Source of the DNA: Methanoculleus formosensis | GTDB taxonomy: Archaea; Halobacteriota; Methanomicrobia; Methanomicrobiales; Methanoculleaceae | Assembly (NCBI RefSeq): GCF_025384765.1 | Contig: NZ_VHLL01000002.1 | Span: forward strand, 372,001-436,000 | Direction of reading: 5' to 3' | Length of the DNA stretch: 64,000 nt | Part shown: positions 1 to 15,885 of the stretch, piece by piece | Position numbering within the stretch: position 1 is the stretch's first letter | Layout of the letters: every line of letters begins with the position of its first letter | The notes under the pieces: model-generated | Told to the model about the DNA's origin: nothing | The model's database searches: none | Seen by the model: only the letters and a program-made list of their open reading frames with translations | Made by a program: the position numbers and the translations under genes

Positions 1-1
1 G

Positions 2-2791
2 CTCTGCTCGTTCGCAGCAGATGTCGTCGCCCGCCTCTCCGGCAAGACGGTCGAGACGAGCGCCGTATACAACCTGACGACACAGTTCGGAGGCGGAAAG
101 ACCCACGCGCTCACCCTCGCGTACCACCTTGCCCGTGCCGGATCGAAGGCATATGCCTGGCCGGGTGTCATGGAGATTGCAAATAAGGCCGGTGTATCCA
201 CCCTCCCCGAAGCTGCCACTGCCATCTTCGTCGGCACCGAGTTTGACTCGCTCACCGGCAGGGGTGGCGAGGATGGCACGCCGCTCCGCAAGACTCCGTG
301 GGGCGAGATCGCCTTCCAGCTTGGTGGATCCGAGGCCTTCGAGAAAGTCCGTGAGCACGACGAGCGGATGGTTGCACCGGGCGGAGATGTCATCCGCTCT
401 ATCCTCCCGAAGGATAAGCCAAGCCTCATCCTCATGGACGAGATCGTCAACTACACCAACCGCTCCCGCAAGCTCAAGAACGGCATGGCAGAACAACTCT
501 ACGTCTTCATCCACAACCTCTCCGAAACGGCTCGAAGCACTCAGGGAATTGTTCTTGCCATCTCCGTCCCTGCTTCTGAACTCGAGATGACCACCGATGA
601 CCAGGGCGACTACATTAAACTCGAAAAACTTCTTGAGCGGGTCGGGAAAGCCTATATTATGTCCGCGCGGTCCGAGACCGCCGAGATCATCCGCCGTCGC
701 CTCTTCGAGTGGGAGGGGGTCCCCTCTGACGCAAAGACCACCATCGCCGAGTACGCCGACTGGGTCCGGGAGTACCGCCATACGATCCCGAACTGGTTCC
801 CTGTCGACCAGCCTTACGAACCGTTCGAAGCGACCTACCCCTTCCACCCCATGGCGCTCTCGGTTTTTGAGCGTAAATGGCAGGCGTTGCCCACGTTCCA
901 GCAGACACGCGGCGTATTGAAACTCCTCGCCCTCTGGGTCTCGTACGCTTACCAGAAGAGTTACCGCAAGGGCGAGAAGGCACCGCTCATCACGCTCGGC
1001 TCAGCACCACTTGAGGACCCCCTCTTCCGGGCTGCTGCCCTCAAGCAGATCGGTGAAGGCAGGTTTGAAGGTGTCATCACCACGGATATCTGTGGCAACG
1101 CCAATTCCCATGCGACCCGCCTGGACGATGAAGCAGGGGAACCCATCCGGTCGCATCATCTCCACCAGAGCGTGGCCACCACCATCTTCTTCGAGTCGAT
1201 CAGTGGGGGTGCAGGCCGGACCGCTGCCACACTACCCGAGGTCCGGCTGGCAGTCGGGGGTCCCGGTGTGGACACCGCCAACATCGACACCGTTCTGGAA
1301 GGACTCGCACCCCCTACTGGAAACTGCTTTTTCCTCAACGCCGAAAATAACATCTACCGGTTCGGGGTCAAGACGAACCTTATCAAGATCCATGCGGACC
1401 GAAAAGCCAGCATCGACGAGAGGGAAATCCACACCCTCGTCAAGGAGAACGTCAGGAAGGTGTTCGACCAGGCGTCTACAGTCGAACGGGTCTACTTCCC
1501 GAAACGGAGCGGCGATGTGATGGACAAGCCAGCCATTATGCTGGCTGTGATGGCACCGAACAGGGAGACCACCAGCGAAGAAACCAGAACGATGGTGCTT
1601 GAGTTCTCCAAGCATCATGGCGAAGCAGGCAGAACCTACAAGAGCGCGCTCATCTGGTCGATGGCGTCCGATTCGAGCAGTCTCTACGAAGCAGCACGTG
1701 ATCACCTCGCTTGGAAGGAGATTTCAGATGAGGCAGATGCCCTCAACCTCGATGAAGGGCAGCGTAAACAGGTGCGGCAATACACTGAATCCTCAAAGCG
1801 GGCCATCAAGGAGAAGGTCTGGGAAGCTTACAACATGATCGGTCTCTACACTGAGAGAGATGACATCGAGTTTATCGATCTCGGCCGGATCAATTCCAGT
1901 GCATCTGAGTCGATCACACGCCTCATCACCACCAGATTGAACCAACTGGAGAAGCTTACTGGCACCGTCGGTTCGAACTTCCTTGTGCGCAACTGGTCAC
2001 GAGTCTCTGCTGAATGGAGCACCCGCCAGATCCGGGATGCCTTCTTTGCGTCGCCACATTTCCCCCGCGTGCAGAATCAGGAAGTCATCAAGAAGACCAT
2101 TGAGCGAGGTGTATCCGAAGGGGCATTTGCCTATGTAGGTCGGGCTTCAGATGGTGGGTATGATCCGTTCTACTACCGCGAACCCCTCAGCACCCTTCAG
2201 ATTGAGTTTTCCGACGACGTGTTTCTCGTCCCAAAAGAAGAAGCCGAAAAAGAGATTGAAAGAAGAAGTAAGGATAACCGGATCGTTCGATTCGTAATCG
2301 AGGCTCCGGCCCAGGAAGTTGCCGCAGGCCAGCGTTGTACCTTCACTGCCCGTGCGTATAACAAAGACGGAGAACAGATCACGGGGAAGGAGATAACATG
2401 GCATACCGACGGGGGAGAGATCAGCGATCTGGGTGAATTTTGTGCAGATGAAGCCCCCGGCACCTACTGTGTCACGGCGGTCTGCGACAACGTTCCTGCT
2501 GAAGTACAGATTCAGGTCAAGAAGGAAGTGATCCGGGAAAAAGACGAAATACAGACAAGAATCACCTCTCTCCACTGGGATGGAAAGGTTGATCCGTTTA
2601 AGTGGTCGAACTTCTACAACCGTCTTATCATTAAGCTTATGAAGTCCGGAAAGCTCGATCTCTCCATCAATCTTTCAGTGAATAATAGGGGGGGTATTTC
2701 TCAAGAGATGATCGACGAGATCCGCGTCGCATTGAAGGAATTGGAGCTTGATGAGGATATTCAGATGAACAAGTCCGTATACGACTACTAA
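2..2791 (+). CDS. DUF499-family P-loop ATPase, 5' truncated by window edge
   Basis: The reading frame is open from the first full codon, so the protein begins upstream of the window; 929 codons are visible. A Walker A-like motif FGGGKTH lies near visible residues 29-35 (lysine at 33) and a Walker B-like LILMDE follows near residues 141-146. Further on, the segment around YPFHPM and the QQTRGVLKLL motif resemble the DUF499 ATPase family as I know it. Visible residues about 760-843 look like an immunoglobulin-like (Big-type) beta domain, with an AGQ...FTARAYNKDG start. DUF499 proteins are large ATPases often found in defence islands beside a DUF1156 DNA methylase, and PglY/BrxC of BREX is a distant relative; that partner, if present, would be upstream and out of view. 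Catalytic function is inferred. A T-rich stretch follows the stop codon. Confidence 0.72.
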   Translation, partial: LCSFAADVVARLSGKTVETSAVYNLTTQFGGGKTHALTLAYHLARAGSKAYAWPGVMEIANKAGVSTLPEAATAIFVGTEFDSLTGRGGEDGTPLRKTPWGEIAFQLGGSEAFEKVREHDERMVAPGGDVIRSILPKDKPSLILMDEIVNYTNRSRKLKNGMAEQLYVFIHNLSETARSTQGIVLAISVPASELEMTTDDQGDYIKLEKLLERVGKAYIMSARSETAEIIRRRLFEWEGVPSDAKTTIAEYADWVREYRHTIPNWFPVDQPYEPFEATYPFHPMALSVFERKWQALPTFQQTRGVLKLLALWVSYAYQKSYRKGEKAPLITLGSAPLEDPLFRAAALKQIGEGRFEGVITTDICGNANSHATRLDDEAGEPIRSHHLHQSVATTIFFESISGGAGRTAATLPEVRLAVGGPGVDTANIDTVLEGLAPPTGNCFFLNAENNIYRFGVKTNLIKIHADRKASIDEREIHTLVKENVRKVFDQASTVERVYFPKRSGDVMDKPAIMLAVMAPNRETTSEETRTMVLEFSKHHGEAGRTYKSALIWSMASDSSSLYEAARDHLAWKEISDEADALNLDEGQRKQVRQYTESSKRAIKEKVWEAYNMIGLYTERDDIEFIDLGRINSSASESITRLITTRLNQLEKLTGTVGSNFLVRNWSRVSAEWSTRQIRDAFFASPHFPRVQNQEVIKKTIERGVSEGAFAYVGRASDGGYDPFYYREPLSTLQIEFSDDVFLVPKEEAEKEIERRSKDNRIVRFVIEAPAQEVAAGQRCTFTARAYNKDGEQITGKEITWHTDGGEISDLGEFCADEAPGTYCVTAVCDNVPAEVQIQVKKEVIREKDEIQTRITSLHWDGKVDPFKWSNFYNRLIIKLMKSGKLDLSINLSVNNRGGISQEMIDEIRVALKELELDEDIQMNKSVYDY

Positions 2792-2793
2792 TA

Positions 2794-2815
2794 CTCTTTT
2801 TAGAATATTTTTTGA
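2794..2815 (+). terminator. T-rich putative transcription terminator
   Basis: Two runs of T (five, then six) within 22 bases begin just after the stop codon of the DUF499 gene. Archaeal polymerase terminates at short T tracts without needing a hairpin, so this is a plausible end for the preceding transcript. Confidence 0.45.
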
Positions 2816-4794
2816 ATACCCTATGGATCTCGTTCCACAATTGAGTCCCCAGACAGTCCAGACGCCCTCTTGCAGACTCTCGCTTGCACTATTGCTTCCA
2901 GAGGCCCCGGCTGTGACTCTGACTTCGCCTCCTGTCCGAGGGCCAGAGCCGGGTGGAGGTTCGTCTGGAAACCGTCGACAACGGCAAACTCCGGCTCCGG
3001 CAGACTAACCCTCACACAGCGCTGGATCCGGCCCTGCGTCCCCGTGCCCATCCGCTCGCTGTAGCCGGTCAGATACTCAGCTCAGCCAAGAGCAGGTTGC
3101 CTGGCACTGACCCGTGGGCCTGCCACAGCTTCTCCAGGGTCCGGGACGGTGGGAGCGTGCGCGGATTCCGAACCTCCTATAGTCGAAAACAGTACCACCT
3201 GTCGCTGCCGTTACTGGTGGAATCGTGGCGGGCAACGGCATTGATGATGGCCTCATCACCATCTCTTTAGGGTTCTCATAGCGCACTGGCGCCTGCGGGC
3301 CAGCCTCACGGGTACCCACCGAGAGGGCGAGTAAGAAGGTTTCGCCAACGCACTTCCTGGTAACACCATAATACAAGCGCTATATTATCTCACCCTGCTT
3401 CGGTGTTGGGGAATGTGACGACTCTTTCACCTACACGCGTACATGCGCATTAGAGGGCCAAAATTTGAGCGACCAAGGCGCGCATGCGTGCCTCATGATG
3501 ACGAGCGCGTTCATTGAGATCACCCACACAGCACCTACGCTCCTACACACGTGAGGTGCCAGAGAATAAGCCCGCCCCGATTCACTATAAAGTAGCTGTA
3601 GCCGTTGATTTCTAGTGATTGGTTTGCCCATGTAAGTGACCCAATTGTAGTGCCTAGAACCCTTATGACTATAGACATAGGGGTCTCCCTATAGGGTATC
3701 CTTAAGCAGCGAATTTTCCTGTGAAATGAGGCTAATTGAAACCCGCAAACTGCCTATTCGGCGTGTAAACGCTGTCGGACCATACCGATACGCTCCGGTT
3801 GAACGGGGATCAACAACAGGACTGAGATGGTTTGGCCCCCTCGTAGTGCCGGCAAGGGGACCCAGAACACCACCGAGGCCGGGGTCGAGCAGGGGACGGC
3901 TGAAGGTCGGGGAGTTATACTACCTCACAGACGTCAATCCCGGCGAGGTACACCACTTGGCCCACGTCTCGAATGCCCACGGCACCGTCGCGGACGCGGC
4001 CCGGGTCCACGACCCTCACCCCGCTCACGACCGTCCTCTTCTTCCTCGCGATTGAAGTGCTCCTGGCCCTCTTCGTGATCCTCACCCTCTACAACTTACT
4101 GTCAAGAAGCGTTGACCTGGGGGTGGGGACAGAAGCCCTACCATGCACACTCACTGTGGCTTTGTAACGGGCGATCTCATCGCAGGTGGTATCCCAAATC
4201 ATCCTCGGAAATGCCCTGCCTTAAATCGCTAATATGTCTATGCTAAAAATTGAGATATAAGGCTATAATCGTCTTAATGCCGGGCTTTTAGTTCTAAGTA
4301 ATTTTCTGGGGACCTTGCACCGCTTCGCTCTGATTCCCTTCTTATCTCCCATATATTATGCATATGCAACTTTTCTAGTAGGGAATTTTGGGACCAGTAC
4401 TCGGGTCCCCCCACCGAAGGTGATATAGGGGGGCTGATCATCAACCTCCCAAATGCAAGGGAGGGGGCGCTGAAGATCAGTTCCCCCCTCTCGGCAAGTC
4501 CAGGGGCCGGGCTGAGTCCTCAATGATCCTTCAATATCTGTCTCTTCCACCTCTTCCGCACTTTGAGGGGAATATGTGTAACCTACGGAAGGTAGGTACT
4601 GGGGAACTGCATGTGCAACTGGGTTAATCCCCACCTGTCACACCATGCACTACGACAGGTGATCATCCACTTGATTTGAGGATCGGTGTAGGGATCTCCC
4701 CTGTTCTGGCTCCCCTTCGGGCGTCTGCCTGTCGTCTTACAATAGGACGACAACATAGGCATTCCTTATAGCCCCACACCCCGATCATTATCCA
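2816..4794. other. about 2 kb without an intact gene; likely degraded DNA
   Basis: Only short open frames without good starts or recognisable motifs are present on either strand. The first 600 bases are GC-rich and show frames that look like broken coding sequence on the minus strand (3376 down to 2821), but I could not assign them to a transposase or any family. Around 4000-4115 one plus-strand frame encodes a single hydrophobic stretch (TVLFFLAIEVLLALF...) that could be the remnant of a membrane protein. From 4168 to 4729 I see nothing beyond AT-rich spacer and short frames. The region sits inside the proposed integrated element and looks like decayed cargo. Confidence 0.5.
4730..4752. promoter_or_regulatory. 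7-bp inverted repeat upstream of the small recombinase gene
   Basis: TGTCGTC (4730-4736) and GACGACA (4746-4752) are perfect reverse complements separated by 9 bases, ending 42 bases before the start codon. A TATA-like CTTATAG lies about 25 bases before that ATG. The position just upstream of a TATA-like box suggests an operator or a recombinase-related site. Confidence 0.35.
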
Positions 4795-5397
4795 ATGCTC
4801 CCAGAGCCCATTCTTAAGCAAAGCACCCGAATCCTCTACCCATCAGAGTACAGGGCGATCAGAAGCCACCTGAACTTCAAAGACCAATTAATTCTCGACG
4901 GCCTCCTTTTCTCGGGGACGCGGGGAGTCGAGTTTTGTCGGTTCTTAGAGAATCCCGGCTGGTACAAACCAAGCCGCCGAGCAATCGACCTCCCGAAGGG
5001 AAGTGTCCTGAAGAAGAAGGCAAAACAGGCTGAAAGGACTGTCCTCTTGAGCAATGCGGGAGTTCAAGCCATCGAGACCCTCATCTCCTATCGCAAACAA
5101 AACCCCAACGAGCTCAGGCCGGTGTCCAGGCAGGCTTGGACAGAGACCCTCACCCGGGCCGCAGGAAAGGCGGTCGTGGAGGGGCGGCTGGCGAGTCTTG
5201 TGGGGATTGCCCCGAAGATGACGAGAAAAACGTGGTCGTCTTGGCTGATCGCGACCCATTCCCACCGGGAAGGGTCGGTTAGTCTCTCAATGGGCCACGA
5301 TATCCGGACGATGCTCCGGCACTATGCCGGATTGGGATGGCCGCCGGAGGCCCGGCAGGAGATCCGGCAGTATACCGCCGGGTGGGGCGACGAGTAG
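4795..5397 (+). CDS. Small tyrosine recombinase-like protein (catalytic domain only)
   Basis: A 200-residue protein matching the catalytic half of phage-integrase/XerC-type tyrosine recombinases. The box I arginine is R43 in SGTRGVEFCRF, the second region has R144 in TRKTW followed by GH at 167-168, and the nucleophile tyrosine is Y177 in RHYAGL. The usual N-terminal SAM-like DNA-binding domain (about 100 residues) is missing, so this is either a minimal recombinase or a gene that lost its 5' part. No Shine-Dalgarno sequence is visible before the ATG, but a TATA-like element about 25 bases upstream fits a leaderless transcript. It lies inside the proposed integrated element and is a second recombinase besides the one at 9114-10400. 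Whether it is active is unknown. Confidence 0.7.
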   Translation: MLPEPILKQSTRILYPSEYRAIRSHLNFKDQLILDGLLFSGTRGVEFCRFLENPGWYKPSRRAIDLPKGSVLKKKAKQAERTVLLSNAGVQAIETLISYRKQNPNELRPVSRQAWTETLTRAAGKAVVEGRLASLVGIAPKMTRKTWSSWLIATHSHREGSVSLSMGHDIRTMLRHYAGLGWPPEARQEIRQYTAGWGDE

Positions 5398-5456
5398 ACG
5401 TTCATACATGACCGCCATGACCGCCATTGTGAGTTAGGAGTGATCTGGAGAAGGGA

Positions 5457-5467
5457 TTTAAATAATT
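5457..5467 (+). promoter_or_regulatory. Putative TATA box for the PEGA protein gene
   Basis: TTTAAATAATT is an archaeal TATA-like box lying about 46 bases before the start codon, predicting a transcript start near 5488 and a leader of about 20 bases that contains the GGTGA ribosome site. Confidence 0.45.
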
Positions 5468-5507
5468 AGAACCATATGGGGCACTAATGTAACTGGTGAG
5501 TTTTAAT

Positions 5508-6311
5508 ATGGTGAAATGTTTTCGCCTTTTGGCGGCAGTTGTACTTATATTCTGTATCGTATACCCAGTAACATCCGTTGTTATCAATCCTCCAGTACGT
5601 TCCGCTCCGCCAGGAGGACCGGGCGCTTCTCACTCGGGCCCAGTATACATTTATGTGACGCCGACCCAAAGACCAGTGAATTACCTGACTATTGAAGTCT
5701 CGCCTGATGAGGCCACAATATTTATTGACGGGGGGTCTAGCTCCAGCCCCCCTGTGGGGTCTCCTCTAACTGATTCGAGATCTCACATCAAGAGAGTAAC
5801 ATACCCAATTTCTCCCGGCACTCACACGATCCGGGCCACCGCACCCGGGTATCAAACGCATACTGAGCAGGTCCAGGTGAATAGTGGAGATAAATCGTAC
5901 ATATCCATCGCCTTAGACAGAGATCCCAGCTATGTTGAGATGACCGAGTTTAACGTGAAGACACGGCCTGTTGGGGCGTCGGTATACGTGGACGGCAGAC
6001 TTAATGGGACATCCCCTTGCACTGTCTCCGCGAGCGTTGGAACTCATACAGTGACCCTACGACTGGAGGGGTATCGAGAGCAGACGTATACGATGGATCT
6101 GAACAGTACCCGATCAATATCGGCGCAATTAATCCGAGAGATAGGAGCCCCCTCGGAGCCGGTGTCGGTGCAGACTGAAACCGTAATACGTGCGGCGGCA
6201 ATCACATCGCCACCAATAGTCACAACAACGGCCAATGCCCAACAGAGTGAGCCGGTGGATCTTTTCCAGTATATCATTTTCTTCTTCAGGGGAGTATTTG
6301 GGGGGGATTAA
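5508..6311 (+). CDS. Secreted PEGA-domain protein
   Basis: The 267-residue product starts with a signal-type hydrophobic segment (KCFRLLAAVVLIFCIVYPV), followed by a Pro/Ser-rich linker and two PEGA-like domains: one from roughly residue 58 to 135 (LTIEVSPDEATIFIDG ... ISPGTHTIRATAPGY) and one from roughly 145 to 210 (FNVKTRPVGASVYVDG ... VGTHTVTLRLEGY). PEGA domains are beta-rich modules found in surface-layer and other extracellular proteins of archaea and bacteria. The C-terminus has a short hydrophobic patch (YIIFFFRGVF). I chose ATG 5508 because GGTGA (5495-5499) is 8 bases upstream; the in-frame GTG at 5496 lies within that ribosome site. Likely exported and surface-bound; partner unknown. 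It heads a run of three plus-strand cargo genes. Confidence 0.75.
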   Translation: MVKCFRLLAAVVLIFCIVYPVTSVVINPPVRSAPPGGPGASHSGPVYIYVTPTQRPVNYLTIEVSPDEATIFIDGGSSSSPPVGSPLTDSRSHIKRVTYPISPGTHTIRATAPGYQTHTEQVQVNSGDKSYISIALDRDPSYVEMTEFNVKTRPVGASVYVDGRLNGTSPCTVSASVGTHTVTLRLEGYREQTYTMDLNSTRSISAQLIREIGAPSEPVSVQTETVIRAAAITSPPIVTTTANAQQSEPVDLFQYIIFFFRGVFGGD

Positions 6312-6384
6312 GGGGTCTTCAAAGTTTATGGACTATTTGTGGTGGCATATTAGCATCTTGCTCATGGACATAGAGGTGACGTGA

Positions 6385-7041
6385 TTGGGTAAGGCAAGAA
6401 AATGGGAGAACCGAGGGTACTATCAGGTTAAGAGGCGTTCTCCTCGGGCAAAGGACTACGCTCTGAAAGTACTCGTGGGTCTACTCATTTTAGGGGGCCT
6501 TATCTGGGTATCACACTTTGGAATACCGGTGGAACTGTCTGAGACGGTCGCAGAGGTATCTTCATCGTTCGAAGTAAAACCAGTTAACACAGGCGACATT
6601 GAAAAGGCAATTCTCTACTATACGAACAAAGAAAGGAAAAATCATGGTGTATCAGCCTTAAATTGGGATGATGGGCTGGCAGTGGTTGCACGGGACCATA
6701 GTCAGGACATGGCGGAGAACAACTTCTTCGCTCATGACAATCTGCGAGGAGAAGACCCCACCGCGCGGGCAAAGTGTCACGGATATCCCACTCATAAGGA
6801 ACTTGGCGGAGGTTGGTATTCCGACGGTATTGCGGAGAATATTGGTAAAATGCCTACAGGCAACGTCGTGGGGATCGGGCACGTGGCGAGGGACGCTGAT
6901 GAGATAGCACGAGTTCAAGTGACCTCATGGATGCAAAGTCCAGGTCATATGAGGAACATACTTGACCCTGATTATAGCAGATTGGGAGTGGGTGTGGCAT
7001 ATGACGGGGTTTACTACATTTCTACTCAGAATTTTTGGTAG
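6385..7041 (+). CDS. Membrane-anchored CAP/SCP-domain protein
   Basis: A 218-residue protein with a basic N-terminus, one membrane helix at about residues 27-45 (LKVLVGLLILGGLIWV), then a CAP (SCP/PR-1/Ves allergen) domain from about 70 to the end. CAP signatures visible are HSQDMAENNFFAHD, GIAENIGK and SPGHMRNILDPDYSRLGVGV, which carry the conserved His and Glu residues of the family cavity. The start is TTG 6385, chosen because GAGGTGA (6373-6379) is ideally spaced and no ATG gives the full membrane segment. CAP proteins are extracellular and in prokaryotes their activity is mostly unknown. It follows the PEGA gene by 73 bases; both products should face outward. Confidence 0.8.
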   Translation: MGKARKWENRGYYQVKRRSPRAKDYALKVLVGLLILGGLIWVSHFGIPVELSETVAEVSSSFEVKPVNTGDIEKAILYYTNKERKNHGVSALNWDDGLAVVARDHSQDMAENNFFAHDNLRGEDPTARAKCHGYPTHKELGGGWYSDGIAENIGKMPTGNVVGIGHVARDADEIARVQVTSWMQSPGHMRNILDPDYSRLGVGVAYDGVYYISTQNFW

Positions 7042-7108
7042 TTCGGTCATTGTTGACCGCAATCTCTTTTAGCAAAGTATATCACCCCTCTTGCGATCAA
7101 TTGGAACA

Positions 7109-7885
7109 ATGGCTCTGTCAGACTCTCTGAAATCAGTTTACCAGCGTATCTTCTATAAGCAATGTCCGATCTGCAAAAAGTACCACCCGAAACATGAGTT
7201 ATGTGAAACTTGCGGCGGTTCCTACAGCGAGAACTGCCGGGACAAATGCGATCTCCATAATCATAGTCATATGAGTGAGACGTATCAAGCATACCGCCAG
7301 GAATCCCCACTTTGCCCCACGTGCAATGATCGCGGCTCTACAACGTCCCAGACCCAATATGGCCTACTAAATAGTCCGAAGTACCAATGCGACGGATGCG
7401 GGAAGTACTATGAAACATTGGTGCCTTGTGAAACGTGCGGCGGTTTCTACTGTGAGAATTGCTTGGGTAGATACGATCTCCACGAGCCCGGTCACTGGTG
7501 CGATATTTGTCAGACATACCATCAGGAAACTTCGCTTTGCGCTGTATGCAATGCCCATTGCTGTACGACGTGCCGAACTCAGTATGACCTCCATGGCCCG
7601 ATGCACCAGTGTAACGGATGTGGAGAGTTCTCTGAAATATTGGTGTACTGTGAAGTTTGCAAAGCATACTATTGTTTCAGATGCTCTTCAGATTACGCAC
7701 TGCATGTTGAAAAGCACCAATGTGATAGGTGTGGGGAGTCTGTTGCCGTCTTAAAATCGATTGATGGGAAGAGGGTTTGCAGCCACTGTTTCACAGTATT
7801 ACTTCGAGCCTCTATTGGATCAGCGAAAACAGGAAAAGTGATCTCAACAGGGGATGGCGGTGCAAGGCATCCCTCATTTAAGTAA
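7109..7885 (+). CDS. Cys/His zinc-finger protein built of 37-residue tandem repeats
   Basis: The 258-residue product is an array of near-identical 37-residue units with ligands at unit positions C1, C4, C14, C17, C22, C25, H32 and H36. Units start near CPIC, then a degenerate unit lacking its first CxxC, then CDGC, CDIC and CNGC, ending in a partial unit at CDRC. Six Cys and two His per unit predicts two zinc ions in a cross-brace or B-box-like fold. There is no signal peptide, so it should be cytoplasmic. I know of no named family for it; nucleic-acid or protein binding is a guess. The start ATG 7109 (MALSD) is preferred over TTG 7091, though neither has a clear Shine-Dalgarno. It is in the same direction as the CAP gene, 67 bases downstream, within the proposed mobile element. 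Confidence 0.72.
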   Translation: MALSDSLKSVYQRIFYKQCPICKKYHPKHELCETCGGSYSENCRDKCDLHNHSHMSETYQAYRQESPLCPTCNDRGSTTSQTQYGLLNSPKYQCDGCGKYYETLVPCETCGGFYCENCLGRYDLHEPGHWCDICQTYHQETSLCAVCNAHCCTTCRTQYDLHGPMHQCNGCGEFSEILVYCEVCKAYYCFRCSSDYALHVEKHQCDRCGESVAVLKSIDGKRVCSHCFTVLLRASIGSAKTGKVISTGDGGARHPSFK

Positions 7886-8019
7886 AACATTTCATAAGGA
7901 TCCTCAGAACGGGTTATACACCGACAAGGAAGGGATTGGTGGGTACCTCTCAAACTACACAGTTCTGGACCCCTTCAATGTTATAACAGCACAGACCCTC
8001 TTCTCTCTGAAATATCACT

Positions 8020-9003
8020 TTAATCGACCACCCTTTCTTGAAGCGTCTTAAGCTCAAACATAGGGATTATGTCCGAACTTTCTCCAGGTGAGAGTTGGTA
8101 AACGACCTCAAGTGAATATCCCTGCACCTTATATCCATGCCTATTAAAAACTGCTTTTGCATCATCGATCACATGGTTAAAAATAGTCGAGTATATCTGT
8201 TCTATTTGATCCATTTGGTTTACTAAGGTGAATTTTGCACTGGGGCAGAATAGTTTAACCCACATCCCATCTTTCTCTTTATCATGGCCACTAACATAAA
8301 CTGGGTGGAAGTGCTTGGTAATTATCTCTAGTTGTCCAACCTCCTTTAGTGGCTTATCGTCTTTTAAGGGGGGTGAAATGAAGTAAAACACTTTGATTCC
8401 CCTGCCCAAATACACTTGATTCCTCTGGGCTCTAATCTGCTTCAAGGTCTGAATCCAGTCCTGTTTAGACGACTCGTCAGACTCAAGTTCAATTGCACGC
8501 AAGTAATCGTTCTCTGCGCTGTCAAGATCCTTAAATATCAAATGACAACTTCCACGTTCCATATAGGCATCTGGAAAATCGGGATATGTGGTTAGTACCT
8601 GGTTTAACACGCTGAGGGCCTCTTCTACTTTAGTAACATCGCCCGTAACGCGCCCTATATCACACAATGTTCTACCGAGCATATAAAGGAGGTATGCGTC
8701 ATTCGGGTACTGAGCGAGTCCATCTAAGCAGACAGAAACTGTTTTGTCATATTCCCCAAGCATTGATGACCGAAGTGACATGGATCTATACACATACTGG
8801 TGAGGATCAGTGATGTGTTTATACATCCAGTGTGTGGGTGCTTGTCTTTCCATTGATTTAATGGAATCTAGGGAAGGTGTAAATTCGGATACCCATGCGT
8901 CAGGGATCCTCTTCTGTATATCTAAAAGAGCCTCATGCTGTTCATCTGAATAAGGCTGTTCATATACTCTCCCTTTCTTAAAGAGTCTGTCAAATAAGCC
9001 CAT
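8020..9003 (-). CDS. TPR-repeat protein of unknown function
   Basis: The 327-residue soluble product opens with a basic amphipathic segment (MGLFDRLFKKGRV). The middle, about residues 70-185, reads as tetratricopeptide helices (YDKTVSVCLDGLAQYPND; VEEALSVLNQVLTTYPDFPDAYMERGS; AENDYLRAIELE). The C-terminal 140 residues are mixed alpha/beta and not recognised. TPR arrays bind other proteins, so a scaffold or regulatory role is possible. It converges with the zinc-repeat gene across 134 bases and is followed by 110 bases before the integrase gene on the same strand. Codon use and base composition are AT-rich compared with the chromosome to the right. Confidence 0.65.
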   Translation of the reverse strand: MGLFDRLFKKGRVYEQPYSDEQHEALLDIQKRIPDAWVSEFTPSLDSIKSMERQAPTHWMYKHITDPHQYVYRSMSLRSSMLGEYDKTVSVCLDGLAQYPNDAYLLYMLGRTLCDIGRVTGDVTKVEEALSVLNQVLTTYPDFPDAYMERGSCHLIFKDLDSAENDYLRAIELESDESSKQDWIQTLKQIRAQRNQVYLGRGIKVFYFISPPLKDDKPLKEVGQLEIITKHFHPVYVSGHDKEKDGMWVKLFCPSAKFTLVNQMDQIEQIYSTIFNHVIDDAKAVFNRHGYKVQGYSLEVVYQLSPGESSDIIPMFELKTLQERVVD

Positions 9004-9113
9004 TTTTATCCCGTATGTCGGCGATGGGTCATATCTGATTAAAATGTTTTCTCTTTGTTTCCAGCCTCATGGCAACCCAATTAACGAAGCAAAGGGCATT
9101 TCTCTTTGAATGT

Positions 9114-10400
9114 TCACCACACATGCCCGGCGTCTGCCTTTCTGATCCCCATCATCTTCAGCCGCTCTAACAGTAGCTGGTCGAAGTTTTTGAGGAACGA
9201 GTCAAATAACTCCGGTCGATCACGCATTGCCTCAAGCATCTGGTACGCATCCAGATTCTCAATCTGCTCCTTGAGATCGCTTGTCCGGGCAATCGCTTCG
9301 GGTGACAGAGCCCACCCACACTTATAGCAATGATCAAATGTTGGGGCGTTCGTGGTGTGGCAGTTCGGGCACGGCCTGGCCTTGAGCTCGTCGGCAGTGT
9401 CCTTCTTCATAACGACCCCGGCCTTCTCCAGGTACTCCGCATCGATGTCGCCTTCGCCAAGCTTCACGTAGGTCTCGAACATATCGGTCTTCAGATTCCC
9501 CCACATCGACTGCTTGATGACGCTCTCCTGATAGTTTTGTGAGACCATATGCGTGATCCGTGACGATCGGAGGATGTGGGGATGCACGTTCTTTGGTATC
9601 CCAGCAGCCTTCCCAGTTCGCTGGAGTATGCGGAGGAAAGCGTTATACTCCAGCCGGGTCCTCTGCTGGGAGATAAAAACAAGATTTTCCCCCGAAGGTG
9701 AGCCTGGGTACTCGACTCTCCAGGCAGCGAGGTAGGAGGCTGCAAGCGTTAACCTCGAATACCTTCGCTTTTTGGTTTTATTGTCAGTGAGATACAACTT
9801 AGTGCCGTATTCATCGAATATAACATCCTTCCACTGGAGGCGCCCGAGTTCGCCTATCCGGCACCCCGACTCGTAAAGGACTCCAATAATTGCCCGGTTC
9901 CGGAGGTCCTTAGAGGCTTCGAGGAGTTGCTCAACCTCCTTCACGGTGAGAAGGTCATCCGGGCACTTAGTATCTCGATCCACCGGTGGGGACTGTATCT
10001 TCCGGATTTTAGTGATATTGAGCTCGTTATGCCCTTCCTCATTCAGCCAATGGAGAAAGGGCTTCAAGACGCGGATATAATCGTGGACGGTATTCTGAGA
10101 AAATGGCTTCCCTTTGAGACTCTTCCCCTCCTTGAGCGCATTGACAGCCGAATATATGTCCCCAATGGAGGCATCAGAGAAGGGCACTCTTAAAAACCTC
10201 CTCCATCCCACGAGGTGCGACACGATCTTGTTTATCCTCGCAACAGAGAGCCCCTTAGTGACCTTCCGCTCCTCTACGTACTCGAGGATGAGTTTCCGGT
10301 CGTGGTCGGTGATGACCCCATCCTGTAGCCCAGACTCGAGGGACACCTGATATCCATATCTTATCTGGCCGTTGTAGAAGGGTTTGTTTGGCTGTGGCAT
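9114..10400 (-). CDS. Tyrosine-type site-specific integrase with C-terminal zinc ribbon
   Basis: From ATG 10400 the protein is 428 residues: an N-terminal core-binding domain (about 20-150), the catalytic domain (about 165-345) and a C-terminal Cys4 zinc ribbon (CPNCHTT ... HCYKCGWAL) with a helical tail. Catalytic signatures are the box I arginine in SGCRIGELGRL, a lysine-rich beta hairpin (DNKTKKRRYS), HPHILR for HxxR, a tryptophan replacing the second histidine in SMWGNL, and the tyrosine in FETYVKLGE. The open frame extends 44 codons further upstream, but that extension reads through the tRNA 3' end (it gives PPGFEPGA, the known artefact of antisense tRNA T arms), so I reject it. The start codon lies 44 bases from the tRNA fragment, the expected layout for the integrase of a tRNA-inserted element. 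Confidence 0.9.
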   Translation of the reverse strand: MPQPNKPFYNGQIRYGYQVSLESGLQDGVITDHDRKLILEYVEERKVTKGLSVARINKIVSHLVGWRRFLRVPFSDASIGDIYSAVNALKEGKSLKGKPFSQNTVHDYIRVLKPFLHWLNEEGHNELNITKIRKIQSPPVDRDTKCPDDLLTVKEVEQLLEASKDLRNRAIIGVLYESGCRIGELGRLQWKDVIFDEYGTKLYLTDNKTKKRRYSRLTLAASYLAAWRVEYPGSPSGENLVFISQQRTRLEYNAFLRILQRTGKAAGIPKNVHPHILRSSRITHMVSQNYQESVIKQSMWGNLKTDMFETYVKLGEGDIDAEYLEKAGVVMKKDTADELKARPCPNCHTTNAPTFDHCYKCGWALSPEAIARTSDLKEQIENLDAYQMLEAMRDRPELFDSFLKNFDQLLLERLKMMGIRKADAGHVW

Positions 10401-10429
10401 AGTCACATATGCGCGCCCACCCGTAATAA

Positions 10430-10468
10430 GGATTTGGAACGCTCCTGGTTCAAATCCGGGCGGGGGCA
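10430..10468 (+). other. attachment site: 3' end of a tRNA gene (T arm plus acceptor strand)
   Basis: Bases 10444-10448 (cctgg), loop 10449-10455 (ttcaaat) and 10456-10460 (ccggg) form a proper T arm with one G-T pair, followed by a 7-base acceptor strand cgggggc (10461-10467) and discriminator A (10468). The matching 5' acceptor strand, D arm and anticodon arm are absent upstream, where the integrase gene begins instead. This is the pattern left when an element inserts into a tRNA 3' end and duplicates it: the intact tRNA should lie at the other boundary, left of the window. The isoacceptor cannot be named from this fragment. The upstream limit of the duplicated core is uncertain. Confidence 0.78.
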
Positions 10469-10696
10469 CTCTTTCTTTAGGTTTAAATTCTTCAACAGAC
10501 ACGTTTATGCCTCGATCCTGACCTCCGTTCACGGCACCAGCCGGGACCGGCAGGGCGTTTTATCGTGCCCGGGAGGGCTGCGCAACCTATCACCGGCCGG
10601 GGGAGCGGTGCCCTCGACCAGTGCCCAGTCTGTAAGACCATCGGCGCCCCGCGCGCGAACTACTGCCCGCCTGCGGCCGGCCGGGTCCGATCGTTG

Positions 10697-10714
10697 TGGG
10701 TCATGGGTGACCCA
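10697..10714. promoter_or_regulatory. 7-bp palindrome TGGGTCA/TGACCCA
   Basis: TGGGTCA (10697-10703) and TGACCCA (10708-10714) are exact reverse complements with a 4-base spacer. It lies about 35 bases before the TATACACAA cluster and may be a protein-binding site; no function is shown. Confidence 0.3.
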
Positions 10715-10747
10715 TAACCCCCCGGGCATGGTTTTCAGATACTCTGG

Positions 10748-10827
10748 TATACACAACGAACTTTGTGTATATCGGATAGGGGTTTTGATATACACAAAAC
10801 CGTTTGCAGATATCTGGGTATTCACAA
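10748..10827. repeat. cluster of four TATACACAA boxes
   Basis: TATACACAA occurs at 10748-10756 and 10789-10797, its inverse TTGTGTATA at 10763-10771, and a one-base variant TATTCACAA at 10819-10827. The first two form an inverted repeat with a 6-base spacer. The direct copies are spaced 41 and 30 bases apart, close to four and three helical turns, so a protein bound to them would lie on one face of the DNA. The target gene is not obvious. Confidence 0.5.
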
Positions 10828-10953
10828 CCGGTTCCCCTCGGTGATGGCGAGCAGGCGCGGGAAGGCATACATGCTCGCTCTTCGGCCCGCTTCGCAAAGA
10901 GGGAACAACCGGGCCGGGTGTGCGCTACTCGTTGACGTATGTAGCGAGGAATA

Positions 10954-11077
10954 GATCATAGAAGTACCACAATGGGATCATAATAGGATCATAACGCCCA
11001 TCCGGAACATAGTTCAACAAATTTTCTGCCTTAGATTCTTAAAATATTCCCATTTCGTATTTTGTAATGGGATCATA
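10954..11077 (+). repeat. four GATCATA direct copies
   Basis: GATCATA is found at 10954-10960, 10976-10982, 10987-10993 and 11071-11077, three of them extended to GGATCATAA. They are in the same orientation in the spacer before the transglutaminase-like gene. They may be regulatory or simply local duplication. Confidence 0.35.
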
Positions 11078-11280
11078 ACCTCCGCTGCTCGGCGCCACCA
11101 CCCCCCGGGTGAGCAGACTCCGCTCCCATAGAACGTCGTTTCGGTGCCTTCTGCTCTGCTCATGGTACAACCGGGGCGGCATCCGGCGTAACGGCAGAAT
11201 GCGAGAAATCTCCGGTACCATGTAGAGAAAAGCCCGAACAAAGAGAAAGGCTTTTTTTCGATCCGTATGCATTCTCACGT

Positions 11281-12801
11281 ATGACTCATCGAGCACTCAC
11301 CGCTCTCCTGGTTACATCCGTCCTGCTCCTCATCGCTGCAGCAGGATGCACCGCCACAACAGACGAGAAGAACGAACCGGTTGCACCGGCCGACGAGGCC
11401 TACGCCCGGGGGCTCGCCGCATACGGAGCCGCCGACTACCGGGTCGCCGAAGAACGGTTTACCGAGGCCTACACCCTCTACACCGATGCCGGCGATACGG
11501 ATAAGGCGCTGAAAGCCCGGAACGCCATCTTCCGGGCGAACCGGACGTATATGGAGTACCCGTTCGACCGTAGCGCTGCAGAGGCGGCGATGCGGGAGCG
11601 GGTCCCCTGGATCGCCGATGCGGCGATAGCCGAATGGCTGGACACCCGGGCCCAGACGATCGTCTCGGAGAACGAGACGCTCTACTTCTACGACGTCGCC
11701 GGGAACTACCTCTACGCGCACCCGGCCGAGATACAGAAGCAGAACGAGAGAGGCGTGGACTTCGACTACCTCGGCCGGTTCGCCTGGGCGGAAGATCAGC
11801 CCGAAGGGATCGGGCCGTACGTGAACCCGGTCCGCTACGTGGGCGTCGAGCGGCTCGAGATCCCGCACGAGGCACTCCCGTCGACGGGAATCCTGAAGAT
11901 CTGGCTCCCGCTCCCGGTCGAGACGGACGCGCAGAGGAACGTCACCGTCACGAACCTCTCGGCTCCCGACTACATCGTCGCCGGCCCGTTCACTACAGGA
12001 AGTATCGGCTACGTCTACTATGAAGTCCCGGCCGGGGCGGTCAACGGCGACCTCGTCATCACGGCGGATATCGCGTTCACCTCCTACGAGCAGAACTTCG
12101 AGGATATCGACCCGGCGCTGGTCGGGGAGTACAACACGAGCGATCCTGAGTACCTGCTCTACACGAAGTCCGAGCGAAACATCGAACTCACGGACGCCGT
12201 TCGGGCGAAGGCGCGAGAGATAGTCGGGAACGAGACGAACCCGCATCTCCAGGCGCAGATGATCTACTACCACATCATCGAGACCTACCCCTACAGCCAC
12301 GTCCCGCACGGCTCGATCGATGCCCGGGAGCCCAAAGCGGCCGAGTCCACCTACATGTTCGAGACCGGCCACGGCGACTGCGGCACCCAGAGCACGCTCT
12401 TCTCCGCATTCTGCCGGTCGCTCGGGATCCCGGCCCGCACCCTCGGCGGCTACCAGATGATCATGGCCGAGACGCCCGGCGGCCACTTCTGGTCGGAGTA
12501 CTACCTCCCCGGCTACGGCTGGGTCCCGAACGACGTGACGGTTGCCGAGGCAGCCGACTGGGTCGCCATCCCCGAGGAGAAGCGGACGGCGTTCAAGGAC
12601 TACTACGCCACGAACCTCGACTCCGCACGCCTCGTCATCCAGAAGAACATCGACGCCCCGATGGACCCGGCCCTGCCCGACGACGCCGCCATCTTCAGGT
12701 GTGTCCGGCAGTCCCCGGCGATCGTCTCCGATACGGCAGACTACGACATCGATCTCTTCTGCATGGGGTGTTTCGGCATCAGCCTTGAGGCCGTCGACTG
12801 A
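11281..12801 (+). CDS. Secreted transglutaminase-like lipoprotein
   Basis: The 506-residue protein has a signal peptide with a lipobox-like end (LLIAAAGC, Cys near residue 22), a TPR-like helical stretch at about 40-75, an extended beta-rich middle and a transglutaminase-like (cysteine-protease fold) domain at about 320-430. The catalytic triad is visible as C367 in GDCGTQS, H402 in GGHFWSEYY and D418 in WVPNDV. Members are often extracellular proteases or cross-linking enzymes; the substrate is unknown. It stands alone on the plus strand with a T8 tract after the stop. No ribosome site is seen directly before the ATG, which may mean a leaderless transcript. Confidence 0.85.
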   Translation: MTHRALTALLVTSVLLLIAAAGCTATTDEKNEPVAPADEAYARGLAAYGAADYRVAEERFTEAYTLYTDAGDTDKALKARNAIFRANRTYMEYPFDRSAAEAAMRERVPWIADAAIAEWLDTRAQTIVSENETLYFYDVAGNYLYAHPAEIQKQNERGVDFDYLGRFAWAEDQPEGIGPYVNPVRYVGVERLEIPHEALPSTGILKIWLPLPVETDAQRNVTVTNLSAPDYIVAGPFTTGSIGYVYYEVPAGAVNGDLVITADIAFTSYEQNFEDIDPALVGEYNTSDPEYLLYTKSERNIELTDAVRAKAREIVGNETNPHLQAQMIYYHIIETYPYSHVPHGSIDAREPKAAESTYMFETGHGDCGTQSTLFSAFCRSLGIPARTLGGYQMIMAETPGGHFWSEYYLPGYGWVPNDVTVAEAADWVAIPEEKRTAFKDYYATNLDSARLVIQKNIDAPMDPALPDDAAIFRCVRQSPAIVSDTADYDIDLFCMGCFGISLEAVD

Positions 12802-12810
12802 TCCCACCCA

Positions 12811-12818
12811 TTTTTTTT
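12811..12818 (+). terminator. T8 terminator
   Basis: A run of eight T starts 10 bases after the stop codon of the transglutaminase-like gene. The rest of the spacer up to 13166 shows no gene or clear signal. Confidence 0.5.
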
Positions 12819-13166
12819 GGCACGGGTCGCTCTTCCCCGTGGGTATCCCGGAAACGAGATGGATTGCCGGTTGCTCTTGATGACGATCGGTTCACTCATG
12901 TCTCCGGGCGTATCATTCATCAGGAGAAAGGCCTTCTTCACGTTTGTCGAAGCCCTTGAAGAAATGCGGGAGGGGTCCATGCGCCCTATCATACCTCAAC
13001 TCCGTCTCGCCGCATCCCGGCAGACCCGCACGTCTTCCTGCTCCCGGGATATGCCCGTCACGGCAGAGGATGGGACCCCGCAATGGCACGACCGAACATA
13101 CGTGTAGGTCTTTTGGCGGCCATCCCCGGGAATACCCTCTTCTCCCCGGACGACAGAGTTGATCCG

Positions 13167-13808
13167 ATGCGTATCAAATTCTGCGGAACCACGAGCCTTG
13201 CCGACATGCGGTGCGCAGTCGCCGCCGGTTGCGACGCCGTGGGGTTCATCATGGGAGTGACCCACCCAACAAGCGACGCCGTAGCGCCGGCCCGGGCCGC
13301 TGAGATGATCCGCCGCCTCCCGCCGTTCATCGAACCGGTCGCAGTCACCCACCTCCACGAGACAGAAGACCTCATCAGGCTCGTGAGGGAGTCGCACTGC
13401 ACGACGTTGCAGGTCCAGGATACCGTCGAGCCGGCCGAACTGGACGACGTCCGCGATGCTCTCCCGTATGTAAAGATCATAAAAGCCGTGCACGTCATGG
13501 ACAGATCAGCGATCGCGACGGCGAAACGCTACGAGCCTTACGCCGACGCGCTCATCCTCGACACCAGAACCGCAGAAAGGCTCGGGGGGACAGGGATCCC
13601 GCACGACTGGAATATCAGCGCGGAGATCGTGGCGGGCTCGGAGATCCCCGTCATACTCGCAGGAGGGCTCACCCCGGAGAATGTGGCGGAGGCGATACGG
13701 AAAGTCCGTCCCTACGCGGTCGATGTGCATACCGGCGTCAAGAAAGACGGCGCCCGCAACCCGGAAAGGACGCTTGCGTTTGCCCGCGAAGCGCGAGGCG
13801 CCGGATAA
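13167..13808 (+). CDS. Phosphoribosylanthranilate isomerase-like protein (TrpF family)
   Basis: A 213-residue TIM-barrel protein. TrpF isomerises phosphoribosylanthranilate to CdRP in tryptophan synthesis. The N-terminal IKFCGTTSLADM carries the catalytic cysteine of the family (usually KICG), the LILDT segment carries the catalytic aspartate, and the phosphate-binding pattern GGTG ... AGGLTPENV ... VDVHTGV is present. The first loop, usually SPR, reads THPTSD here. The ATG at 13167 is chosen because the family begins at this point; the open frame extends 28 codons further upstream. No other trp gene is adjacent, so it could be a stand-alone paralogue with another role, for example on a related phosphoribosyl substrate. 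Confidence 0.78.
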   Translation: MRIKFCGTTSLADMRCAVAAGCDAVGFIMGVTHPTSDAVAPARAAEMIRRLPPFIEPVAVTHLHETEDLIRLVRESHCTTLQVQDTVEPAELDDVRDALPYVKIIKAVHVMDRSAIATAKRYEPYADALILDTRTAERLGGTGIPHDWNISAEIVAGSEIPVILAGGLTPENVAEAIRKVRPYAVDVHTGVKKDGARNPERTLAFAREARGAG

Positions 13809-13883
13809 GACGAATGTCCTGATCTCGCCGTGTCGGGGGTAAACGCCCCCGGCACCCGCACGGCACACATAAAAAAAGAGAAT

Positions 13884-15128
13884 TCACCGGGCAGGCACCG
13901 CCGCCATACCCCTTTCGACCCGGCGGGCCATCTCCTGCTTGACCTTCTGGATCCTCTCCGCCTGGTCGCGCTCGGCAAGACCCGGGCCCGCTTTAGAGAC
14001 GACCTCCTCGCTCGGGACGCCCTTTGCGTTCATGACGCGCTGGTAGCCGAAACTCGCCCAGTCGTCCGGAAGCTCGCGCATCCGCACGTACTCCATGTTG
14101 TTCGGTGCAAGATCCAGCTGAGCATCGAGGACGCTGTTGACGTAGTCCTTGTTCGACTCGAAGACGACCAGGGGCTCGATGACGTCGGCCTTCATGATAT
14201 CCCGGATATCCCGGCCCTCGTACTGCTCGATGAGCCGGGCGCACTCGTTGAAGTGCGTGACCTCCATCTTCATGAAGTTCTCCCAGATCCCCTTGATCCT
14301 GGGGTCGCTCTCCTGCTCTGCAAAGGAGTGATAGAGGTACGCCTCGTTGAGCTCCATCATCGCCATCTTCTCAAGCATCGTCTCGTTCGGGTCACCGAGC
14401 AGGCCGTACTGGGTGACGTGCTGCTCCTCGATCTCCGCGATCTCGGCATACAACTGCCGCGCGATATCGTCGGGATACATGAACCCGTGCGAGCGGTAGT
14501 AGAGCATCGTCTGCTGCTCCCCGGCGGTGATCGTGATGTAGTTCATCTTCGTCTTGATGTCGGCCGTATCCTTGTCGTAGTGCTTGCGCATCGAGTCGTC
14601 GGGATGGCGGTGCTCGATGCTCGTCGGCCGGCCGGGCTTCACCTCGGTCCTGCCCTGGACGATCGAGTCAGGGTCGCCGCCCTCGATGTAGTCATAGAGG
14701 CAACTGTAGCGGTAGAGGTGATCGAAGTCCTCCAGCAAGGCAAAGTCCAGCGTCTGCTTCACGTAAGGATCCGGCTCGTTCTGTGCCAGGTTCGCGGTGA
14801 GGTCGACCGCCACCTGTTCATAGCCGAGTGTGGTCTCGATGATCGACTGGTCGGCCGGGTTGAGCCAGTTGATCGTCTCCTGCTGCTGGGAGTCGATCCG
14901 CCGCATCAGGGCCATCGACTTCTTCACCGCCGGATCCGGGTGCATCCGCTCGATCGCGTGCGACATCAGGACGGCGTTGTTCTCGATCCCGTTCATGAGG
15001 ATGATCCGGGTCCGGGTGTAGGCGTCGACCGCCTTTTTGTCGTACGGGGCCGGAACCATATCCTTCCAGTTTATGGGCTGCTCTTCGATAGGCATGCCCT
15101 CCATCTCGAATGGTCTGAATTGCGCCAT
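13884..15128 (-). CDS. Large ferritin-like protein of unknown role
   Basis: The 414-residue product is mostly helical and has no signal peptide or membrane segment. Motifs typical of ferritin-like diiron four-helix bundles are visible in the second half: EIAEIEEQHVTQYG, ELNEAYLYHSFAEQE and KMEVTHFNECARLIEQY, with Glu and His spaced as metal ligands. The first half repeats the theme (SMALMRRIDSQQQETINWL; ALLEDFDHLYRYSCLYDY), so it may be a double bundle. A role in oxidative stress or iron handling is inferred only from the fold. The start ATG 15128 is preceded by GGAGGGAG at proper distance; upstream in-frame codons have no ribosome site. Confidence 0.6.
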   Translation of the reverse strand: MAQFRPFEMEGMPIEEQPINWKDMVPAPYDKKAVDAYTRTRIILMNGIENNAVLMSHAIERMHPDPAVKKSMALMRRIDSQQQETINWLNPADQSIIETTLGYEQVAVDLTANLAQNEPDPYVKQTLDFALLEDFDHLYRYSCLYDYIEGGDPDSIVQGRTEVKPGRPTSIEHRHPDDSMRKHYDKDTADIKTKMNYITITAGEQQTMLYYRSHGFMYPDDIARQLYAEIAEIEEQHVTQYGLLGDPNETMLEKMAMMELNEAYLYHSFAEQESDPRIKGIWENFMKMEVTHFNECARLIEQYEGRDIRDIMKADVIEPLVVFESNKDYVNSVLDAQLDLAPNNMEYVRMRELPDDWASFGYQRVMNAKGVPSEEVVSKAGPGLAERDQAERIQKVKQEMARRVERGMAAVPAR

Positions 15129-15435
15129 CTCGTCTCCCTCCATACCCCACGGATTCACCGGCACGGGCGGCGAACCCTTCGCCGATCGCACCCGCACTGC
15201 AAAAGACCCGGGGGTCGCTCCCCATACCGGTCACGTCATAAAAACATAACGACCGGTTGAAGATGACGGTTCTCCGACCCGTTCTTCGGCAAGACCGCCC
15301 CAGTGGGCGCGGCGTATACGGGACTGCTTGTACGGGAAGGCGACCGCTCCCGGGTACGAAATGTTAAGTATCCCCGCCCAAGAGGAGATGGCCGGTCGCC
15401 ATCTGAGGGCAACCAGACTGCAGGAGGCATGGATC

Positions 15436-15873
15436 ATGACAGGGAGAGAAGACGACCCCCCCGGTGCCGGGCGGCGGCAGGATGGGGAGCAGAGAGCGAA
15501 CAACCGGGAGGGCGCCGTGAGAAGCAGCCGCGATTTTTTCGGCCTGTCTACGGAGTTCCGGGTCGATATCCTCGAACACGGCGACGAGGTGATCGTCGTC
15601 GCGGAACTGCCCGGCGTAGAGCCGGGTGATACCCGGATCAACCTGCTAAATCCCCAGACGCTGCGGATAACGGCGAGGCGTGCCGGGCCGGTCGAGGAGG
15701 AGTATTACATCCACGAGCGCGGAGACGGGACCCTGAGCCGGACGGTATACCTGCCCGCGAGCGTGGTGGGGGGAGGCGCCCGGACCGGGTTCAGGAACGG
15801 CGTCCTCGAAGTCCGCCTGAAGAAGATGGGGAGAGCGTCTGAGCCCAGCGGCAGGATGATCCCGATCGAGTGA
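15436..15873 (+). CDS. Hsp20/alpha-crystallin family small heat-shock protein
   Basis: The 145-residue chaperone has a charged N-terminal arm of about 35 residues and an alpha-crystallin domain: FRVDILEHGDEVIVVAELPGVEPGD at the start and the GVLEVRLKK strand at the end, the conserved GxLxV/I-type motif that mediates oligomer packing. sHsps hold unfolding proteins without ATP. The ATG 15436 is selected because AGGAGG (15422-15427) is 8 bases upstream; earlier in-frame ATGs are weaker. It is divergent from the ferritin-like gene, which would fit a joint stress region, and converges with treT. Confidence 0.88.
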   Translation: MTGREDDPPGAGRRQDGEQRANNREGAVRSSRDFFGLSTEFRVDILEHGDEVIVVAELPGVEPGDTRINLLNPQTLRITARRAGPVEEEYYIHERGDGTLSRTVYLPASVVGGGARTGFRNGVLEVRLKKMGRASEPSGRMIPIE

Positions 15874-15885
15874 CAGGAAGCGGGA

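Follow-up and report, generated by a model that had tools for sequence, protein, structure and literature searches.

Five tandem zinc fingers of probable AN1/B-box-like type encoded by a tRNA-Phe-integrated element of Methanoculleus formosensis

We found that a 258-residue protein of Methanoculleus formosensis, an archaeon whose gene content points to a methanogen, carries five 36-residue zinc-finger units in tandem, followed by a ribbon with four Cys and then by a basic tail. The gene lies in a 64,000-nucleotide stretch (positions 372,001 to 436,000 of contig NZ_VHLL01000002.1) that we refer to as the window and whose numbering we use throughout. This domain arrangement is real and unusual, and the finger is of a known general kind. 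From sequence searches, the tandem five-unit arrangement appears to be new among the genomes searched, while the finger type was already known. The reading frame at 7109-7885 given in the preliminary description was confirmed, and its parts are as follows.

7074..7083, plus strand: TATA-box-like AAAGTATATC, about 30 nt 5' of the ATG, a putative promoter element
7109..7885, plus strand: zinc-finger array gene, 258 aa, open from the ATG at 7109 to the stop at 7885
7109..7162, plus strand: N-terminal 18 residues, basic, kept in the remnant of genome G034
7163..7270, plus strand: unit 1 (aa 19-54), type A, 7 of 8 ligands (C22 replaced by Ser)
7274..7381, plus strand: unit 2 (aa 56-91), type B, 2 of 8 ligands, a diverged copy of unit 4
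7388..7495, plus strand: unit 3, type A, 8 of 8 ligands, exact pattern match
7499..7606, plus strand: unit 4, type B, 8 of 8 ligands, exact pattern match
7610..7717, plus strand: unit 5, type A, 8 of 8 ligands, exact pattern match
7721..7789, plus strand: C-terminal ribbon C-x2-C-x15-C-x2-C (aa 205-227), with a weak DUF7573 match below cut-off
7790..7882, plus strand: basic C-terminal tail, pI 11, kept in the G034 remnant

The full ligand set, C1-C4-C14-C17-C22-C25-H32-H36, is present in units 3 to 5. An exact DNA-level search of the 64-kb window for C-x2-C-x9-C-x2-C-x4-C-x2-C-x6-H-x3-H returned three copies, all in this open reading frame, against 0.00 expected in shuffled sequence. Eight ligands had been ascribed to four of the five units, but only three have them, since unit 1 carries Ser at C22. 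The one unit thought to have lost half its ligands, unit 2, has in fact lost six of eight, with C14 and C17 alone remaining. Unit starts at aa 19, 56, 94, 131, and 168 mean that the supposed exact in-register repeat of 37 residues holds for three spacings (37, 37, and 37) but not between units 2 and 3, where one extra residue makes it 38. The Cys4 ribbon is a sixth element beyond the five units.

We then asked what kind of finger the unit is. It is very probably an AN1/B-box-like, RING-type treble clef. No unit reached a Pfam cut-off, and the best matches below threshold were B-box, AN1, ANCHR-like B-box, FYVE, and IBR. For zf-AN1 (PF01428; gathering score, 27.9 bits), unit 3 scored 12.8 and a consensus unit 16.6; for B-box (PF00643; gathering score, 24.1 bits), units 3 and 5 scored 13.3 and 13.7 in weak but full-length alignments. 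We therefore do not assign the units to either named family, AN1 or B-box, below whose Pfam cut-offs they stay. Comparison of a unit profile gave a probability of 93% for AN1 (85.5% in a local rerun) and 93% for the family of L003, a three-finger protein of the same order; these are single comparisons, and their E-values are not database E-values. When the non-ligand columns were permuted and the ligands kept, 1 of 100 permutations reached the real score for AN1, and none of 100 did so for the L003 family. An AF2 model of one unit, made from a four-row alignment, had a mean pLDDT of 81.7, with confidence high across the first 30 positions and weakest at the His end (64 and 46, residues 31-41). 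Its best structural matches were AN1, zf-HIT, C1, FYVE, ZZ, and tandem B-box, all weak (Z ≤3.8), and this weakly suggests that the modeled unit resembles mostly binuclear cross-brace domains. A whole-protein AF2 model made without an alignment had a pLDDT of 34 and was not used. The profile search and structure prediction with a single unit, proposed earlier as checks, thus gave the AN1 match and a model confident over its first 30 residues, but nothing above a Pfam cut-off and no structural match beyond Z = 3.8. PDB sequence matches to RAF1 C1, bL32, and NSD3 were also weak, and we attribute them to shared cysteine spacing rather than homology.

The units follow the six-ligand AN1 pattern, C-x2-C-x9..12-C-x1..2-C-x4-C-x2-C/H, at positions 1, 4, 14, 17, 22, and 25; the terminal x5-H-x-C of AN1 is not found, and the units carry x6-H-x3-H instead. 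AN1 domains of the same order have ligands at 1, 4, 14, 17, 22, 25, 31, and 33, whereas in the window the last two are at 32 and 36. The residue before the fifth ligand is Tyr in units 1, 3, and 5 and Cys in unit 4; an aromatic residue precedes C22 in eight of the nine AN1 domains of the order that we compared. In the structure of the Cuz1 AN1 domain, the aromatic residue before the fifth ligand sits between both zinc sites (PMC5035049). The window units would share the C6H2-type binuclear fold of AN1 proper, but they have no RLP motif, stay under the Pfam cut-off, and stand five in tandem in a soluble protein. With B-box type 1 they share C-x2-C-x9-C-x2-C-x4-C-x2-C and a closing His pair, and units 3 to 5 have the B-box ligand set CC/HCCCCHH in RING-like order. 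CCCCCCHH is the set given for both B-box and ZZ domains (PMC4506424). ZZ also appears among the weak structural matches of the AF2 model; the Pfam ZZ profile matched no unit at E values up to 10. A statement that prokaryotes have no B-box-like sequences (PMC2533329) was set aside, as PMC4506424 states that they occur there.

The earlier cross-brace or B-box-like reading is supported; that the ligands face each other is suggested by the fold class and the weak structural matches. The accompanying view that the repeat had no nameable family is not supported. The unit belongs with the binuclear treble clefs of the AN1/B-box/RING-like group, and the order itself has AN1 fingers whose first six ligands are spaced identically, some of these fingers being fused to CAP domains.

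Other finger proteins are laid out differently. In eukaryotes, a TRIM protein carries one B-box or two. The TRIM order of RING, B-box, and coiled coil is absent from the array protein, which has five fingers, no detectable RING or coiled-coil family, and no room between fingers for a coiled coil. The three fingers of L003 are C-x2-C...C-x2-C-x4-C-x2-C units like those of the window, but they are separated by long spacers, have a longer first loop, and match FYVE and zinc-ribbon Pfam models above cut-off. The L003 gene (L003:1450-2199) lies directly 3' of a gene that reads like an archaeal LonB protease. Among 120 genomes of the order, 18 had AN1 proper above cut-off. L222 of genome G111 has a perfect tandem AN1 duplication, with fingers 63 residues apart in a 199-aa frame; it adjoins two tRNA-Thr genes and is, after the array, the second instance of fingers duplicated close to tRNA genes.

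To trace how the array grew, we compared its units with each other. The type A units were 18/36 (units 1 and 3) and 17/36 (units 3 and 5) identical, and the type B units 2 and 4 were identical at 14 of 36 positions, 12 of them non-ligand (shuffle P < 1e-4). The neighboring units 1 and 2 share only 8/36. In a self-comparison of the protein, identity peaked when the sequence was shifted by 37 and by 75 residues. Because of these A/A and B/B identities and shift peaks, the order is shown to be A-B-A-B-A and the growth step to be a duplication of a two-unit block of about 75 residues; unit 2 is, by its sequence, a substituted copy of type B. No DNA-level tandem repeat is left within the gene. The ten positions invariant in units 3 to 5 are the eight ligands, Y29, and L31. 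Among these units the ligand codons have no changes at positions 1 and 2 and differ at third positions only, while the non-ligand codons vary at all three. Thus, the codon pattern indicates that the ligands were under selection after duplication. Expansion by duplication followed by decay, as previously proposed, is supported.

No intact homologue was found by whole-protein search in 199 genomes of the order or 393 of the phylum, and the species collection, the viral contigs, and the phage and plasmid sequences likewise had none. A scan of 84,980 species for a ten-ligand tandem pattern found no other array, a result that applies to this spacing, as arrays of other spacing would escape it. The matches to this pattern in species and viral sequences fell in frames that were of low complexity, antisense, or very short; the one exception was L165 (Thermoplasmata), a genuine protein with a single finger. 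The eight-ligand DNA pattern gave 84 matches in viral contigs, none of which passed a filter for in-frame, non-low-complexity sequence. Matches of the unit profile within the class were half-unit CxxC motifs and were taken as chance. PHROGs, NCBIfam, and PADLOC gave nothing significant for the array protein. The rarity claimed for the array thus stood, with no second array among the 393 phylum genomes or in the 84,980-species pattern scan.

A remnant of the gene is present in a sister species (G034). It retains the 3' end of the CAP gene, a TATA-like site at the same place (AAAGTATATA, compared with AAAGTATATC in the window), and the start and first 24 codons. The array is deleted, the tail is in another frame, and a tRNA-Thr gene adjoins. 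Between the window and G034, the remnant ends have a dN of 0.20 and a dS of 0.59, values from short and partly pseudogene sequence. The array gene was therefore probably once present elsewhere in the genus, with the array lost there; that a short form came first is less likely because the G034 frame is disrupted.

The gene is carried by a mobile element inserted in tRNA-Phe(GAA), whose parts within the window include the following.

2..2791, plus strand: HmaC (DUF499 ATPase), whose start lies left of the window
4795..5397, plus strand: short integrase-like protein
9114..10406, minus strand: tyrosine integrase, which probably starts near 10403-10406; the longer open reading frame runs on through the att repeat
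10444..10468, no strand assigned: right att repeat, corresponding to the 3' end of tRNA-Phe and matching the tRNA copy at contig positions 353084-353108 in 24 of 25 bases

Both borders carry the 25-bp repeat formed by the 3' end of tRNA-Phe(GAA), the two copies being 24/25 identical, and the empty site is found in a sister genome (G128; contig C88, L181). Its flanks correspond in the window's genome to contig 2 up to 353108 and then from 382444 (window position 10444). From the empty site and the borders, the insertion is therefore about 29.36 kb, and window positions 1-10468 are its right part. An integrase, an att repeat in a tRNA gene, and an empty site elsewhere are what identify a tRNA-integrated element, and they corroborate the mobile setting that had been suspected. 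The element encodes an HTH protein, an MCM helicase, the SNF2-type helicase HmaA, a STAND NTPase, the methylase HmaB, and the ATPase HmaC, followed by the short integrase-like, PEGA, CAP, array, and TPR genes and the tyrosine integrase adjoining the right border. Helicase HmaA, methylase HmaB, and ATPase HmaC make up the Hma defense system (PMC8565338), and the PADLOC models for it matched with E values from 4e-89 to 3e-193. In this candidate HmaABC locus (L185:8228-19757 plus window 1-2791), the STAND NTPase lies between HmaA and HmaB, with weak SIR2-like matches. No capsid-type gene was found among the element proteins scanned, and the element is therefore likely to be integrative and plasmid-like, carrying a defense system. 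A related element end in genome G151 (L180:5833-7951) shares the short integrase-like gene, PEGA, and the integrase, and has a gene named acetyltransferase-like from its sequence in the slot of CAP, array, and TPR. Because of this replacement, the slot beside the integrase is, as gene content has it, variable cargo.

We next considered the genes that flank the array.

5496..6311, plus strand: PEGA-domain protein with an N-terminal hydrophobic segment
6385..7041, plus strand: CAP-domain protein with one N-terminal membrane helix, ending 67 nt before the array gene
8020..9003, minus strand: TPR protein, convergent

The window CAP protein has a membrane helix and no finger. In two other genomes of the order (L198 and L200), a single protein carries AN1, one or more membrane helices, and CAP, with both domains above cut-off, and the CAP homologues L201, L203, and L204 have a zinc ribbon where L198 and L200 carry AN1. 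An AN1 or zinc ribbon ahead of the membrane helix is thus apparently a recurrent architecture in archaeal CAP proteins. L207 and L214 combine AN1 with TPR-like repeats, and AN1 also occurs on short membrane-tethered proteins of the order. In four further proteins (L209, L212, L215, and L219), AN1 and a membrane helix are joined to a candidate transglutaminase-like domain. Partners fused to AN1 in the order thus include CAP and TPR, which in the window are neighboring genes, and this argues for a functional link among CAP, array, and TPR in the window. The co-occurrence of PEGA, CAP, and TPR, marked earlier for checking, was found for CAP and TPR as AN1 fusions in relatives, while PEGA recurs without the array. 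The link between CAP and the array is one of adjacency in one genome and one remnant, and close CAP homologues L191, L196, and L197 have no finger gene nearby. A separate TATA-like site precedes the array gene, so that its expression need not be tied to that of CAP.

On these grounds we tentatively favor a reading in which the cytosolic finger module of a CAP protein was detached and amplified into a soluble, multivalent docking scaffold of tandem binuclear fingers. The cargo gene would encode a soluble protein with five tandem RING-like treble-clef fingers of AN1/B-box type, of which three or four could bind two zinc ions each. The module would have come from the adjacent membrane-anchored CAP protein, and the product would dock several partners at the membrane with CAP, acting neither as a DNA-binding array nor as an enzyme. 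A cytosolic, protein-binding scaffold is suggested because the intact fingers are acidic (units 3 to 5 have 6 K/R and 14 D/E; pI 5.3) and the array protein has no membrane helix. The predicted fold and the CAP link are supported; the partner, target, and outcome of the scaffold are what we infer.

It seems unlikely that the protein is a nucleic-acid-binding regulator of the element, its tandem fingers contacting DNA or RNA in the manner of C2H2 arrays. In its favor, DNA-binding arrays classically consist of fingers in tandem, the element's own replication and integration genes need control, and the N-terminal segment and tail are basic. However, the intact fingers have the acidic composition given above, and the nearest types, AN1, B-box, and ZZ, bind mainly proteins (PMC4506424, PMC5035049). 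A decaying relic with no present function is a rather doubtful explanation. Unit 2 has lost six ligands and unit 1 one, G034 holds only frame-disrupted ends, and no intact homologue appeared in the genomes searched, but the 258-codon frame is intact, the ligand codons have been kept since duplication, and dN is below dS in the short, partly pseudogene ends shared with G034. Because unit 2 and the sister copy have decayed, the array gene may nevertheless be dying.

Binuclear fingers of the AN1/B-box/RING group have been studied mostly in eukaryotic protein turnover. Where PMC4506424 cites Burroughs et al. 2011, prokaryotic fingers of this group are connected with membrane-protein folding, stability, and proteolysis. 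It is quite improbable, though conceivable, that the amplified AN1/B-box-like array is a prokaryotic hub recruiting several copies of a cytosolic partner to membrane CAP; that partner would be either a protease (LonB or the proteasome, for instance) or a modifier system of the ubiquitin-like kind. If true, the hub would be mobile-element cargo and an archaeal counterpart of the multivalent finger scaffolds known from eukaryotes. We regard as still harder to credit an adaptor for defense or counterdefense, tied to HmaABC or other conflict genes of the element: HmaABC and the STAND NTPase are on the same element and the integrase-adjacent slot varies (the G151 acetyltransferase-like gene), but the array gene lies outside the Hma operon, its product has no PADLOC match, and its neighbors encode envelope-type proteins. 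A metallothionein-like role in zinc storage, as a metal buffer or a redox protein, is highly improbable. The 258 residues do include 31 Cys and 15 His, but the spacing is strict and some non-ligand positions (Y29, L31, and aromatic 21) are conserved, features that fit folded domains and that metal buffers do not need.

To our knowledge, there is no work on the role of surface CAP proteins in archaea. The array beside CAP, together with the AN1-CAP and AN1-TPR fusions in the order, offers a testable functional link from cytosolic fingers to CAP proteins at the surface. The array is also a case of a finger module multiplying and decaying on a mobile element.

An Rfam search of window positions 1-16000 returned nothing. 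Two segments, 2889-3331 and 10690-10892, are repeated in many genomes of the genus and are perhaps dispersed intergenic repeats.
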